Positions 4,386 to 10,811 of a DNA stretch of 64,000 bases are shown here, piece after piece. Made by a program: the position numbers and the translations under genes. Each line of letters opens with the position of its first letter. Positions within the stretch are counted from its first letter, which is position 1. The DNA lies in contig MPNJ01000003.1 in assembly GCA_002238965.1 (NCBI GenBank), positions 1-64,000 of the forward strand, written 5' to 3'. A model generated the notes under the pieces. The model saw nothing but the letters and a program-made list of their open reading frames with translations, did no database searches and was not told where the DNA came from. The stretch is from Nitrospinae bacterium bin107 (GTDB taxonomy: Bacteria; UBA8248).

Positions 4386-5654
4386 ATGATCAGCGTGGAA
4401 GAAGCCCGGAACTCGATACTGGAGATGATCCACCCGATGGGACGCGAGCGGGTGGGCCTGCTCGATTGCCCGGGCAGGGTGCTGGCCGAGGACGTGCAAT
4501 CCTCACGGCCGGTTCCGCCCTGGAACAACTCGGCGATGGACGGCTACGCCCTGCGCGCGGAAGACGTCCGCGGCGCGAGCCGGGAGACGCCCAGGACGCT
4601 GAAGGTGGTCGAGGAGATTCAGGCGGGCGTCATGGCGAGCCGCACCCTCGGTCCTGGCGAGGCCATCAAGATCATGACGGGCGCGCCCATTCCCGATGGC
4701 GCGGACGCCGTCGTGCTCGTCGAGGAGACGGAGAGAACCTCCGAGGAGGATGTCCAGATATTCCTCGCCGTGCGCGAGGGAGAAGCCATCCGTCTCGCGG
4801 GTGAGGACGTGAAGCCGGGCGAAACCGTTCTCTCGCACGGCACCCGCCTGGGTGCGGCTTCCGCAGGCATGCTGGCGAACATCGGCCGGGCGAGGGTGTA
4901 CGTCTATCAAAAACCGAAAGTGGCCATCCTGGCGACCGGAGAGGAACTGGTTGACCTGGGCGACGCCCCCGGCGTCGGGCAGATATTCAACTCCAACTCC
5001 TACGCTCTCGCCGCACAGGTGCAGGAAGCCGGCGGAGAGCCGATTCTCCTGGGCATCGCCCGCGACAACGCCGAAGACCTGACCCGCCACATCAACGACG
5101 GCCTGGCCGCCGATTTGCTTATCACGAGCGGCGGCGTGTCGGTGGGGGATTTCGACCTGGTGAAGTCCACGCTGGGCGGGCTGGGGAACGACATGCGCTT
5201 CTGGCGCGTGCGCATGAAGCCGGGCAAACCGATGGCGTTCGGCGTCCTGAACGGCAAGCCTGTGTTCGGCCTGCCGGGGAATCCCGTCTCCACAATGGTG
5301 AGTTTCGAGTTGTTCGTGCGGCCCTCACTCTTGAAGATGCAGGGCCATGAAAATCTCTTCCGCACGACCGTGGAGGCGCGCCTCCTGCACCCGCTCACGA
5401 AATCCCCCGAGCGGCGCCACTACGTCCGCTCCTTCGTCCACCGGGACGGGGAGGAATTTGTCGTTCAGGCCATCGAAGCGCAGGGCTCCAACATCCTGCA
5501 TTCCATGGTGCGGGCGAACGCCCTGGTCGTGTTCCCCGAATACGAGACCGAACTCGCCGCCGGGAGCCGCGTAAAAGTCATCTTGCTGGGGGAGACGCCC
5601 TCGGAAAAACCCGAGCACATCGAGGCGGCTACCCCGGAACGGGTGCACTCCTGA
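4386..5654 (+). CDS. moeA: Molybdopterin molybdotransferase MoeA
   Basis: MoeA inserts molybdate into adenylated molybdopterin, the last common step of molybdenum cofactor synthesis. Visible motifs are PPWNNSAMDGYA (about 44-55), IMTGAPIPDGADAVV, LATGEELVDLG, SGGVSVGDFD and KPGKPMAFG followed by GLPGNPVS. The length of 422 residues fits. I chose ATG 4386 because GGAG precedes it at good spacing; an upstream extension to 4296 adds only non-conserved residues. mobA follows directly, so the pair makes guanylylated cofactor. Confidence 0.95.
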   Translation: MISVEEARNSILEMIHPMGRERVGLLDCPGRVLAEDVQSSRPVPPWNNSAMDGYALRAEDVRGASRETPRTLKVVEEIQAGVMASRTLGPGEAIKIMTGAPIPDGADAVVLVEETERTSEEDVQIFLAVREGEAIRLAGEDVKPGETVLSHGTRLGAASAGMLANIGRARVYVYQKPKVAILATGEELVDLGDAPGVGQIFNSNSYALAAQVQEAGGEPILLGIARDNAEDLTRHINDGLAADLLITSGGVSVGDFDLVKSTLGGLGNDMRFWRVRMKPGKPMAFGVLNGKPVFGLPGNPVSTMVSFELFVRPSLLKMQGHENLFRTTVEARLLHPLTKSPERRHYVRSFVHRDGEEFVVQAIEAQGSNILHSMVRANALVVFPEYETELAAGSRVKVILLGETPSEKPEHIEAATPERVHS

Positions 5655-6916: not shown

Positions 6917-7069
6917 AATTTCACATCTGTTGAACCGAATCACGAAATCAGGATTTTTTTAACAGCAAATAAGAGCAGCAAATATCTACTCACGCTTACA
7001 AAGACCGGGCTTCTCTGTATAATCTTGCAGGATAACAAGTCGCCTGCGAAACAAAATGGTGGGGGTTCT

Positions 7070-8491
7070 ATGAATTATCGCTTCATCCTGTCAATGCTGT
7101 TGATGTTGTTCGTGAGCTCCGCCGCGCCTGCGCAGGCGAACCCTGGCATCGACTATATGCGAAAGATCGAGGGGGCGTTCACGCAGATCGCGGAAAGCGT
7201 GAAGCCGACGGTGGTAAGCATACGAGCGGAGAGAAAAAAGGGAACAATCCAGCAGACTCCCCGGTCGCCCCATCCAAACATGCCGCTGTTCTCCTCCGGG
7301 TCAGGCGTCATCATCGACCCGGCCGGATATATTCTCACGAACAACCACGTGGTCAGTAATACGCGGAGACTGCGCGTGCGCCTTTGGGATGAGTCCGCCC
7401 ATTGGGCGAAAGTCGTCGGCACGGACCGGTATACGGATCTCGCGCTGATCAAGATCAACCCGCACCGCAAGCTGCCGGTGGCGAAGTTCGGGGATTCCGA
7501 CAAAGTGAAGGTGGGCCAGTGGTCGATAGCCGTGGGCGATCCATTCGGCATTACGAGAACGTTCACGGTAGGCGTCGTGAGCGGGATGGGGCGCAGCGGC
7601 GTCGGCGTCGCGCGATATGAGCATTTCATCCAGACGGACGCCGCCATCAACCGGGGCAACAGCGGCGGGCCCCTTGTGAATATCGACGGGCAGGTCATCG
7701 GCATCAACACGGCGATTCCGGCTCCCGGCAGCGGGCTCGGGTTCGCCATTCCCGTCAACATGGCGAAAGACGTCATCAAATACCTGAGAAGAAGCGGAAA
7801 TTTCCCGCGCGGTTATCTGGGCGTGAGCATTCAGCCGGTCAGCCAGGACATGGCCTACCTGCTGGGGCTCTCCGGAGCGAAAGGCGCGCTCGTGGGTTCT
7901 CTGCTGAAGGACGGCCCGGCGGAGGGAGCGGGCATCCGCATGGGCGACGTGATCGTCCGCCTCGGCGGAACGCGCGTCGTGGATACGGCACATCTCCAGC
8001 GTCTCGTGGGCTGGACGCCGCCGGGAGATGCCGTGGCGGTGGAAGTCGTGCGAAACGCCCAGAGAAAAAAATTCATGGTCAAGCTGGTCCGTCTGCCTGA
8101 GCAGGAAACGGCCAACGCAAAGGCGCAGCCGAGCGAAATCGATGAACCCGAGACCAGGAAGAATTACGGCGTGGCGCTTGAGAACCTGACCGACGAGCTG
8201 AAGGAGAAAGGCAAGCTGGAGACGGACGGCGGCGTATATATCAGCGACGTGGAAGAGGGCAGCAGGGCCTATTACGACGGCTTGCGCGAGGGCATGGTGA
8301 TACGCGGACTGACCTATCGTCTGCCCGGAAACGGGAAAACGCCCATCCGCGTCTCGATAGAAAAACTCGAAGACGTCGAAGCATTGCTGAAAAAAATTCC
8401 CGCGGGCGCGAACGTCCTGGGACAGGTCGTGCGCGGAACAGACCGCGGGGAGCGGACTTTCTTTGCCGTCCTCCACGGATTTCGACGCTAG
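7070..8491 (+). CDS. Periplasmic serine protease, HtrA/DegP family
   Basis: Envelope protein quality-control protease. The 473-residue product has a signal peptide (about 1-23, ending APAQA) and a trypsin-like domain with the triad His93 (NNHVV), Asp123 (YTDLALI) and Ser198 (GNSGGP). A first PDZ domain starts near residue 245 (YLGVSIQPV). The remaining 150 residues contain a second, weaker PDZ-like region (GVYISDVEEGSRAYYDGLREG). ATG 7070 was chosen over TTG 7025 because GGTGGGGG precedes it and the signal peptide starts there. The DUF3179 gene follows within 40 bases. Confidence 0.93.
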   Translation: MNYRFILSMLLMLFVSSAAPAQANPGIDYMRKIEGAFTQIAESVKPTVVSIRAERKKGTIQQTPRSPHPNMPLFSSGSGVIIDPAGYILTNNHVVSNTRRLRVRLWDESAHWAKVVGTDRYTDLALIKINPHRKLPVAKFGDSDKVKVGQWSIAVGDPFGITRTFTVGVVSGMGRSGVGVARYEHFIQTDAAINRGNSGGPLVNIDGQVIGINTAIPAPGSGLGFAIPVNMAKDVIKYLRRSGNFPRGYLGVSIQPVSQDMAYLLGLSGAKGALVGSLLKDGPAEGAGIRMGDVIVRLGGTRVVDTAHLQRLVGWTPPGDAVAVEVVRNAQRKKFMVKLVRLPEQETANAKAQPSEIDEPETRKNYGVALENLTDELKEKGKLETDGGVYISDVEEGSRAYYDGLREGMVIRGLTYRLPGNGKTPIRVSIEKLEDVEALLKKIPAGANVLGQVVRGTDRGERTFFAVLHGFRR

Positions 8492-8528
8492 CCCCAATGG
8501 GTTCTGGCCGCCAGAGGAGAGCGCTTTC

Positions 8529-9611
8529 ATGCCTCAGATGAGAAGCATTCTTGTCGCCTTGCTGGTTCTCGCCTTTCCGGTACTCTCGGGCGCGAGTCCT
8601 GAAACCGAGATTCGCACACTGCTGCCGAAAGACGGCATACCCGCCATCGATGCGCCGGAATACGCGAGCGTGAAAGACGCCAAGAGGTTCATGCAGCCGG
8701 ACGAGATGGTGATCGGCATCAACATCAAGGGGGAGAAGCGGGCCTATTCCGTCCCCCTGCTCAGCTCGCACGAGATCGTGAACGACGTGGTGGGCGGGAG
8801 CGCCGTCTCCGTTACCTGGTGACCGCTCTGCTATTCGGCCATCGTGTATGACCGTAACCTGGACGGGGAAAAACTCAGCTTCGGCGTTTCGGGAAAACTC
8901 TGGAAGAACGTGCTCATCATGTACGACCGACAGACGGACTCGCTCTGGAGCCACCTGACGGGCGAGGCCGTTATCGGTCCGCTCAAGGGCAAGCGCCTGA
9001 AGACGTTCCCCGCCGCCATGATGCGCTATTCCGAATGGACGCAGCTCTATCCCGATACACTGGTGCTGAAGAAGAAGTTGAAGGGCATGGGGGGCATGTT
9101 CCGCAGCTCCTCGAGGGACCCGTATGAGGGGTATTACTACAGTTCGCAGACGGGCGTGATCCCCGAGAAATACCGCGACAACCGCCTGCACCCGAAAACC
9201 CTGCTGGTGGCCCTTGCGCTCGATTCCCCGAAAGAGAAAGGGGAGCAAGTATCCAAGGTGTATCCTTTCGCGGATTTGAACCGCGCGGGCGTCGTGAACG
9301 ACCGCTTCGCCGGACGGGACGTTCTGGTCACCTACTGCGAGGGGGCGGGTACGGGGGTCGTTTTCGACCGCGTGTTGGAGGGCAAGACGCTGGAGTTCGA
9401 ACTCATTGCGAGCGAGGGCGCGAAAGGCGCCGCCGCCTGCCGGTTCATGAAGGACAAGAAAACGGGTTCGCTCTGGCAGCGCCTGACAGGCATGGCCGTC
9501 GATGGGCCGATGAAGGGCGCCAAGTTGAACCAGCTATCCACGACGCTCGCGTTCTGGTTCGGCTGGAAGGATTATTATCCAAAAAGCGAGATATACCGCC
9601 ACCCGAAATAG
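8529..9611 (+). CDS. DUF3179-family exported protein, candidate selenoprotein (in-frame TGA at 8820)
   Basis: Reading through TGA at 8820-8822 gives a 360-residue protein in one frame; without readthrough the gene is split into 8529-8822 and 8823-9611. Residues 1-23 look like a signal peptide (MPQMRSILVALLVLAFPVLSGA). The TGA falls where DUF3179 proteins have the first Cys of VTYCPLC: here VTW-U-PLCYSAIVYDR (U98, C101), giving a U-x-x-C pair. The second half repeats the motif as VTYCEGAGTGVVFDR, with Cys270 aligned to U98. Flanking sequence (VNDVVGG upstream, FGVSGKLWKN and MYDRQTDSLWSHLTGEA downstream) is intact. Start ATG has GAGGAG upstream. The biochemical role of DUF3179 is unknown to me; a redox role is inferred from UxxC. 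A simple nonsense mutation is the alternative. Confidence 0.75.
8834..8856 (+). promoter_or_regulatory. Candidate bacterial SECIS hairpin
   Basis: Starting 12 nt after the TGA, UUCGGCCAU can pair with AUGACCGUA around the loop CGUGU (8843-8847). There are seven base pairs with two internal mismatches. The small apical loop with G in its second position, 21-25 nt downstream of the TGA, fits the published bacterial SECIS pattern. Hairpins of this size also arise by chance, so this is supportive rather than decisive. Confidence 0.45.
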
Positions 9612-9631
9612 CCGCACTGCTTGAGGGGTTG

Positions 9632-9687
9632 TGTTGAAAAAGTCGCCGATAAATCAGAGTTCGACGCGACCTACGAGAAGCAAGAGA
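9632..9687 (+). repeat. Dispersed repeat, copy 1 (TGTTGAAAAAGTC type)
   Basis: It begins TGTTGAAAAAGTC and continues through AGAGTTCGACGCGACC. A diverged copy in the same orientation lies at 53881-53935 (TGTTGAAATAGTCC, then GAGAGTTCGACGTGACCG). Short pieces of the same start recur near 9708 and, inverted, near 9960, 15140 and 49870. Confidence 0.6.
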
Positions 9688-9745
9688 ATCACTCCCCCTT
9701 GAGGGGTCTGTTGAAAAAGTCCCACAGAGGGAGCGCACTGAATTT

Positions 9746-9908
9746 CACTCCCCCCTTGAGGGGGAGTCAGTGAACTGAGGGCGTAAGCCCGAAAGTGAAC
9801 TGGTGGGGGGTATAACTCGGAGTGGCGATAAAACGCATTTCACCCCCCACCGAATCGGCCTTCGCATAAACCGCTCGGCCTCTTCGACTCCCCCTCAAGG
9901 GGGGAGTG
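9746..9908. repeat. MITE-like element with perfect 22-bp terminal inverted repeats
   Basis: The ends of this 163-bp element are exact reverse complements over 22 bp (CACTCCCCCCTTGAGG at the left). Each end is itself nearly palindromic. The interior has no ORF. A second copy is at 14928-15111; the shared interior includes GAACTGAGGGCGTAAGCCC and CGATAAAACGCATTT-like stretches. Confidence 0.8.
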
Positions 9909-10040: not shown

Positions 10041-10811
10041 TTGAACCCCATCATATTCGAAATCGGACCGTTCGCGCTGCGCTGGTACGGACTCATGTAC
10101 GTCACCGCCGTGCTGGCCGGCGTCTGGCTGGTGAGGCGAGAAGTAGCGCGCAAGGGGATGCCCATTACGCCCGATGAGGTGATGAACTTCGGGCTCCTCG
10201 TCATGTTCGCAGGCATCCTGGGCGGCAGAATGTATTATGTACTCTTCAATTGGGAATTCTACCAGGACGCCTTATGGGAGGTCTTCGCCATCTGGAAAGG
10301 GGGTCTCGCCATACACGGCGGCCTCGTGGGCGGCGTGCTGGCCGGCTATCTGTATCTCAAGAACCACGCCGTATCCACCTGGGAGTTCGCCGACGCGGTG
10401 GCGCCCGCCATCATGCTCGGCCAGGTGTTCGGGCGGTTCGGCAACTTCATGAACGGCGACGCGCACGGCGTGCCGACGACGATGCCCTGGGGCGTGGAGT
10501 TTCCGATGACATCCATCGCGGGCCGGGAATTCCCCGGACAGGCGACGCACCCCGTGATGATATACGAGCTTCTCCTGAACCTCGTATGGTTCTTCATTTT
10601 AAGAAGATTGAGGCTTACGAACCACAAGCCGGGCTTCATCTTCTGCCTCTATTTCGTCCTCTACTCCTTCGGACGCGCCGCGGTGAGCGGCTTTCGGGCG
10701 GACAGCCTCTGGTTCGGTCCAATGCGCGCCGCATATCTCGCGAGCGCCGTGCTCATCGTCGTGTTCGGGGCGATCATCGTGCGGTGGCGGATGTGGGAAA
10801 GGGAGGGGTAG
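10041..10811 (+). CDS. lgt: Prolipoprotein diacylglyceryl transferase Lgt
   Basis: Lgt transfers diacylglycerol from phosphatidylglycerol to the lipobox Cys of prolipoproteins in the inner membrane, the first step of lipoprotein maturation. The 256-residue protein has about seven membrane segments. Family motifs are IHGGLVGGVLAGY near residue 93 and GRFGNFMNGDAHG near residue 132, the latter carrying the essential Arg and Asn of the Lgt signature. The start is TTG with AAGGA nine bases upstream. It stands alone between a repeat field and an AT-richer patch. Confidence 0.95.
   Translation: MNPIIFEIGPFALRWYGLMYVTAVLAGVWLVRREVARKGMPITPDEVMNFGLLVMFAGILGGRMYYVLFNWEFYQDALWEVFAIWKGGLAIHGGLVGGVLAGYLYLKNHAVSTWEFADAVAPAIMLGQVFGRFGNFMNGDAHGVPTTMPWGVEFPMTSIAGREFPGQATHPVMIYELLLNLVWFFILRRLRLTNHKPGFIFCLYFVLYSFGRAAVSGFRADSLWFGPMRAAYLASAVLIVVFGAIIVRWRMWEREG

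Follow-up and report, generated by a model that had tools for sequence, protein, structure and literature searches.

The window, by which we mean the whole stretch of 64,000 nucleotides analysed from Nitrospinae bacterium bin107, contains on its plus strand a DUF3179 gene whose reading frame is interrupted by one in-frame TGA. The frame runs from 8529 to 9611 and encodes 360 residues; its single internal stop, the TGA at 8820–8822, falls at residue 98 in the context SVTW-U-PLCYSAIVYDR, giving the motif VTW-U-PLC. A plain ORF listing splits this gene in two, at 8463–8822 and 8844–9611. The features of the locus are as follows.

7025–8491, plus strand: trypsin-PDZ protease (HtrA/Deg type), upstream neighbour (domain search; adjoins the gene in relatives)
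8529–9611, plus strand: predicted DUF3179 selenoprotein gene, 360 aa with the TGA as Sec (translation; PF11376, 310.3 bits)
8529–8594, plus strand: putative signal peptide, residues 1–22 (by eye; pLDDT below 50 at residues 1–20)
8727–9038, plus strand: domain 1, residues 67–170, predicted Rieske-type sandwich (structure model)
8769–8771, plus strand: codon for His81, nearly invariant, 17 residues N-terminal of Sec (alignment)
8820–8822, plus strand: TGA, putative Sec98 (translation, relatives, alignment)
8829–8831, plus strand: TGC, Cys101, the likely partner of Sec98 in UPLC (translation, alignment)
8836–8854, plus strand: SECIS-like hairpin of seven positions, paired save for one C-A mismatch, with loop CGUGU at 8843–8847 (covariation, frozen synonymous sites; weak when taken alone)
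9246–9557, plus strand: domain 2, residues 240–343, predicted Rieske-type sandwich and repeat of domain 1 (model, self-alignment)
9336–9338, plus strand: TGC, Cys270, domain-2 counterpart of Sec98 (profile alignment)
10041–10811, plus strand: prolipoprotein diacylglyceryl transferase (Lgt), downstream neighbour (domain search; adjoins the gene in relatives)

Translated through the TGA, the protein matched PF11376 (DUF3179) with 310.3 bits against a cut-off of 27, which places it in that family; PF11376 was the sole Pfam family at E up to 1, and a search of NCBIfam to the same limit found nothing. An earlier note on this DNA had described the frame as continuous on both sides of the TGA, had placed the TGA at the first Cys of the family motif VTYCPLC and had matched Cys270, in the second half of the protein, to the TGA residue. 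All three observations were borne out: there is no other internal stop, Cys homologues have the first Cys of CPLC at the position of the TGA residue, and the profile alignment sets Cys270 opposite it. TGA codons with at least 60 open codons on each side number 24 on the plus strand of the window, that of this gene included, and 30 on the minus strand. Six of those frames were scanned in Pfam and one gave hits, to amine oxidase and related FAD domains, which end at residue 598, before the TGA at codon 611.

The protease adjoins the gene in the related loci L017–L023, and Lgt does likewise except in L018, where the flank is short. Neither was found beside the gene in L024, L025, L042 and L043, or in the distant loci L041, L063, L078, L081, L087, L098 and L105, among which some flanks are short. 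The hydrophobic N terminus of the protein, together with these neighbours, fits an exported protein. Between the gene and Lgt, at 9620–9800, the sequences cttgaggggt and tgttgaaaaagtc each occur twice by eye, giving this interval a repeat-like appearance.

Eleven related loci were found in named genome contigs. Ten cover the site; TGA is present in nine and TGC in L026, the most distant of them. This sharing of TGA by nine of ten argues that its presence is not due to chance. The earlier note had named other stops in close relatives as evidence against a selenoprotein, and the nine closest loci covering the site carry the same TGA with no other stop within the gene. Within the host phylum, a DUF3179 match was obtained in 15 of 18 genomes, and 18 matches cover the N-terminal half, 15 of them with one TGA, placed in each case at the site by profile alignment, although these counts are not independent since the members of the phylum are related. 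The three N-terminal matches without TGA are paralogues in one genome, G014, which has TGA copies too. In a wider sample of 386 genomes, 65 have DUF3179; 50 of these lie outside the phylum, and 15 of the 50 have TGA at the site.

Where TGA is absent, the site usually codes for Cys. The 66 filtered alignment rows for domain 1 have TGA at the site in 33 cases, TGC in 20 and TGT in 13, so that the alignment of homologues around codon 98 that had been proposed in the earlier note did find TGA or TGC/TGT in other genomes. An in-frame UGA with conserved coding sequence on either side, and Cys homologues at its position, are both expected of a bacterial selenoprotein gene, and both were found here. 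Cys occupies +3 in 52 of the 66 rows and His occupies −17 in 61; among the 33 TGA rows, ten have a residue other than Cys at +3. The row filter was made by hand and misplaced two domain-1 rows, L083 (TGT) and L092 (TGA, Ala at +3); adding them gives 68 rows, 34 with TGA, 11 of which lack Cys at +3.

In some DUF3179 members (L096, L097, L099, L101, L104 and L108) the Sec/Cys site is occupied by Ser, Asn or Asp, which suggests that these are paralogues of changed function. Other loci, L111–L116 (in genomes G207, G344, G115 and G062), are short DUF3179 forms with open frames of 156–277 aa and TGA at the site; having Val, Ile, Gln or Glu at +3, they lack the Cys partner there. Further stops occur in some distant TGA matches, for example in G062 and on contig G207:C85. 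A search of viral contigs for relatives gave seven pattern matches, none of which was confirmed.

The hairpin lies 16–34 nt after the T of the TGA. Its five-base loop is mostly CGUGU in the family, with GGUCU or AGUUU in some members; such loops would be targets of SelB, by analogy with the Escherichia coli fdhF element. Taken in this gene alone the signal is weak: the stability of the hairpin is unexceptional (−3.4 kcal/mol, z −0.23), the segment of 57 nt that begins at 8814 adopts another fold when folded alone and gives no signal (z +1.67), and an Rfam scan of 8700–9000 found nothing. Support for it comes from the family. Among 13 TGA sequences (that of the window's gene, those of 11 loci in phylum genomes and L025), codons +3 to +8 were the same in 371 of 402 comparisons in which the residue is shared (0.92); in the 22 other bins of six codons this proportion ranged from 0.40 to 0.76.

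Covariation was assessed in 33 TGA sequences, L050 having been dropped from an initial 34 because it is cut by a contig end. In these sequences 77.9% of hairpin cells are paired as compared with 70.0% in shuffles, and covariation is 0.314 as compared with 0.181, values reached by none of 500 shuffles in either case. Both sides have changed in five of the seven pairs (3.0 in shuffles; 9 of 500 as high), while further pair types are no better than shuffles (9 versus 8.0; 106 of 500). Sliding the register by 1–3 bases reduces pairing to 26–43%; slid by −4, it still pairs 3.88 of 6, against 4.55.

No such signal was found in 18 Cys sequences, where 42.9% of cells are paired and 41.8% in shuffles. 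These 18 had been picked by hand, and the count was therefore repeated with all 34 Cys rows: the mean is 2.88 of seven pairs, as compared with 5.45 in the TGA rows (n = 33), and it is 3.0 in the 11 rows whose site holds another residue and 3.36 in the 42 remaining rows, mostly domain 2. Pairing is poor in a few TGA rows, L041 and L063 forming one pair of seven and L067, L115 and L118 three, although in L118 all pairs form at a shift of one base downstream. Among the rows with Ser, L096 has six pairs and L110 five; the six that remain in L096 perhaps reflect a recent loss of Sec. Covariation in the TGA rows, and the absence of a maintained hairpin in the Cys rows, back the selenocysteine reading of the earlier note and point to a SECIS stem-loop 3′ of the UGA in the family, weak though it is in this gene alone.

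The genome from which the window comes (4.37 Mb in 60 contigs) has the machinery for selenocysteine insertion. The search for selA, selB, selC and selD suggested in the earlier note found all four: a tRNA-Sec (75.9 bits, anticodon tca), selA (576 bits), selB (385.7 bits), which lies on the same contig as selA at a distance of about 0.9 kb, and selD (333.9 bits). Absence of selB and tRNA-Sec had been put forward as grounds for rejecting a selenoprotein; both are present. The selD gene (L032, G000:C32:206681-207643) itself holds an in-frame TGA, and Sec-containing SelD proteins are known.

The machinery and the TGA also occur together across genomes. Where the site holds TGA, 28 of 29 genomes carry a tRNA-Sec match scoring 54 bits or higher, as compared with 15 of 30 whose site could be read and is not TGA (Fisher p 6e-5), and outside the phylum 14 of 15 do so as compared with the same 15 of 30 (p 0.007); the 54-bit limit was set after matches of 43–52 bits proved common. 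By this limit G048, whose selB scores 370.6 bits, is scored as having no tRNA-Sec, its best match reaching 50.3 bits. Six of the 65 genomes (G002, G023, G135, G247, G293 and G302) were left out of the table, their domain-1 site being uncovered or their domain doubtful; if the doubtful G247 and G302, which have tRNA-Sec, are counted as non-TGA, that class becomes 17 of 32. For selB, 26 of the 29 TGA genomes and 15 of the 30 non-TGA genomes exceed the cut-off.

The TGA genomes without selB are G001, G009 and G207. The first two have tRNA-Sec, G001 with selA and G009 without. In G207, which is listed as 98% complete, no selA, selB or tRNA-Sec was detected, the best tRNA-Sec-like match scoring 39.9 bits. 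Its four DUF3179 genes (L106, L111, L112 and L116) have TGA at the site and a hairpin with six of seven pairs each. Since selB and tRNA-Sec adjoin in G056 and G333, the absence of a single stretch could perhaps account for the gap, and G207 is a useful exception.

The claim of the earlier note that this is a Sec-containing DUF3179 is thus supported by the sel machinery, by the same TGA in relatives and by the covarying hairpin. We conclude that the internal TGA is almost certainly read as selenocysteine and that 8529–9611 is, by the sequence tests run, a genuine selenoprotein gene; gene, machinery and hairpin are all documented at that level. This corrects the gene model in a lineage where ordinary ORF calling yields two fragments.

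The protein is built of two repeated halves (30% identity over 138 columns, E 2e-20). A model of the full protein, built with 11 sequences, has a pLDDT of 84.6, and that of domain 1 alone 91.1. In Foldseek searches of the PDB the best rows were Rieske ferredoxins for the full model (E 0.012) and NirD for domain 1 (E 0.11); no row fell below 0.001 in either search, and the lower rows for both models were unrelated proteins at low probability. A second structure comparison, which re-ranks Foldseek's own matches only, gave Z up to 8.8 for the whole model, mostly through domain 2 (204 chains with Z of at least 2), and up to 8.2 for domain 1 (172 chains). In these comparisons, which rest on predicted models, every one of the 50 entries listed is a Rieske-fold protein, either by its name or, for some such as NirD, subunit B of arsenite oxidase and respiratory supercomplex chains, because we take it to be one. 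By the caveat of the tool itself a Z near 8 may reflect a common arrangement only, but the listed rows are unanimous and cover the domain almost completely, which speaks for a closer resemblance. The DUF3179 protein therefore probably folds, as modelled, like a Rieske protein.

The cluster ligands of Rieske proteins, Pfam family PF00355, lie in the motif CxH ... CxxH. No CxH occurs anywhere in the DUF3179 protein (Cys/Sec at 98, 101, 270 and 304; His at 81, 142, 221 and 358). An hhalign comparison with six Rieske domains of the same genome scored 9.65, below the median of 11.0 for 60 column shuffles, and hmmsearch of PDB sequences returned six weak rows, five of them haemoglobins, with a best E of 0.24 and no Rieske protein. 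Because it has neither the CxH motif nor sequence-profile similarity, we do not file the protein as a Rieske protein; hhalign and Pfam showed no sequence homology to that group.

That Sec98 might be a cluster ligand was also considered, and we reject it. The interval His81-x16-Sec98-x2-Cys101 does resemble the CxH-x15-17-CxxH of Rieske ligands. On the aligned ranges, however, residues 33–132 of the domain-1 model span chain residues 2–96 of the ferredoxin 4p1b, and Sec98 (model residue 63) corresponds to about 27–32, well N-terminal of positions 45, 47, 64 and 67, which we take to be the ligands. The ranges for domain 2 place Cys270 similarly, at 23–32 of 1vm9. In the models the Sec/Cys centre would accordingly lie near residues 27–35 of Rieske ferredoxins. 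We know of no thiol chemistry on a Rieske-fold scaffold.

In the mechanism that we favour, SelB and Sec-tRNA-Sec would recognize the mRNA hairpin at 8836–8854, and the UGA at 8820–8822 would be decoded as selenocysteine to yield a 360-residue exported protein. This protein would comprise two repeats, each a predicted Rieske-type β-sandwich without iron–sulphur ligands. Sec98 in domain 1 and Cys101 of UPLC would most likely form a selenenylsulphide/selenol-thiol centre, performing thiol-disulphide or peroxide-type redox chemistry outside the cytoplasm. We hold this explanation as a whole, from hairpin-directed decoding to an exported Sec98/Cys101 redox protein built of repeats without cluster ligands, with high confidence. 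Its product is most likely an exported, cluster-free selenothiol oxidoreductase, the redox chemistry being suggested by Sec/Cys exchange and by a UxxC motif that lacks its Cys in ten of the 33 TGA rows. More tentatively, and with rather less than even confidence, we propose that DUF3179 is a distinct branch of the Rieske fold, cluster-free and with its domain duplicated, in which an exported selenothiol oxidoreductase has its Sec/Cys redox centre elsewhere on the sandwich.

Sec98 and Cys101, with His81 near in sequence, might instead bind a soft metal, making the protein an exported metal-binding or metal-sensing domain. UxxC and CxxC motifs bind metals too, many Rieske-fold proteins are metal proteins, and the His at −17 is almost always kept. 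Nevertheless, the TGA rows without Cys at +3 would be left with one soft ligand, and in other members the site itself is Ser, Asn or Asp; we consider metal binding unlikely, and prefer thiol redox chemistry.

The alternatives to selenocysteine decoding fare considerably worse. Were the TGA a true stop, the locus would be a split or decaying gene encoding a 97-residue fragment, perhaps with a restart at GTG 8844, where the second ORF begins. Such a gene is hard to reconcile with a TGA shared by relatives as distant as L025 (52% identity), with purifying selection 3′ of the TGA (dN/dS 0.063–0.142 over 10 pairs, using the window locus and the four closest loci), with nearly frozen synonymous sites and a covarying hairpin, or with the sel genes of this genome, and we regard it as highly improbable. 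We give equally little credence to insertion of another amino acid, Trp or Cys, through a changed code or leaky read-through, for which G207, with TGA in four DUF3179 genes and no sel genes detected, is the point in favour. In the window's genome the upstream MoeA ends in TGA at 5652–5654, and therefore TGA still works there as a stop; moreover, Trp97, immediately before the TGA, is encoded by TGG, and tRNA-Sec and selB are present. A one-base sequencing or assembly error, for which nothing counted, is more improbable still, because relatives in separate assemblies of several species carry the same TGA. Selenocysteine is thus the reading we retain.

Whether Sec members of this family had been catalogued was left open in the earlier note, and they have: tables in PMC9312934 and PMC13188914 include DUF3179 among the selenoprotein families, with the motif UxxC/T, PMC9312934 crediting it to Zhang and Gladyshev (2007) from an Olavius algarvensis symbiont, and among the plasmid records listed 4 of 20 are named ‘DUF3179 domain-containing (seleno)protein’. 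A table in PMC9230427 merely lists a DUF3179 gene of an Idiomarina strain. In the two selenoprotein tables the family stands under its DUF name, the entries giving no function, SECIS or fold. Searches of the literature collection used here found no paper pairing DUF3179 with Rieske and none pairing selenoprotein with Nitrospin.

The gene described here belongs to the same family (PF11376) as those tabulated selenoproteins and has the same Sec motif, UxxC. It differs from the Olavius-symbiont example in host lineage, its nearest named relatives being Nitrospinota and Tectomicrobia assemblies. The Cys-form DUF3179 proteins of bacteria and haloarchaea are also of this family and, in the bacterial rows examined, share the VTYCPLC site, but they have TGC or TGT in place of TGA and do not keep the hairpin. 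Its sequence supports the locus well as a selenoprotein gene; the family is one already known for selenoproteins, the lineage has been little studied, and the insertion mechanism would be the standard one. The predicted fold resembles that of NirD and Rieske ferredoxins (PDB 3c0d, 4aiv, 2qpz and 1vm9), NirD 3c0d matching the domain-1 model with Z 8.2 (rmsd 3.7, 98 aligned) and Rieske 2qpz the domain-2 model with Z 8.8 (rmsd 3.4, 93 aligned), but here there is no CxH and no profile similarity. What is new is this predicted Rieske-type fold without the Rieske ligand motif, a first hint, from models, of the architecture of the family. Together with the covarying SECIS and the Sec, Cys, Ser, Asn and Asp variants it provides concrete leads on DUF3179, and the fold assignment is what a specialist would wish to test.
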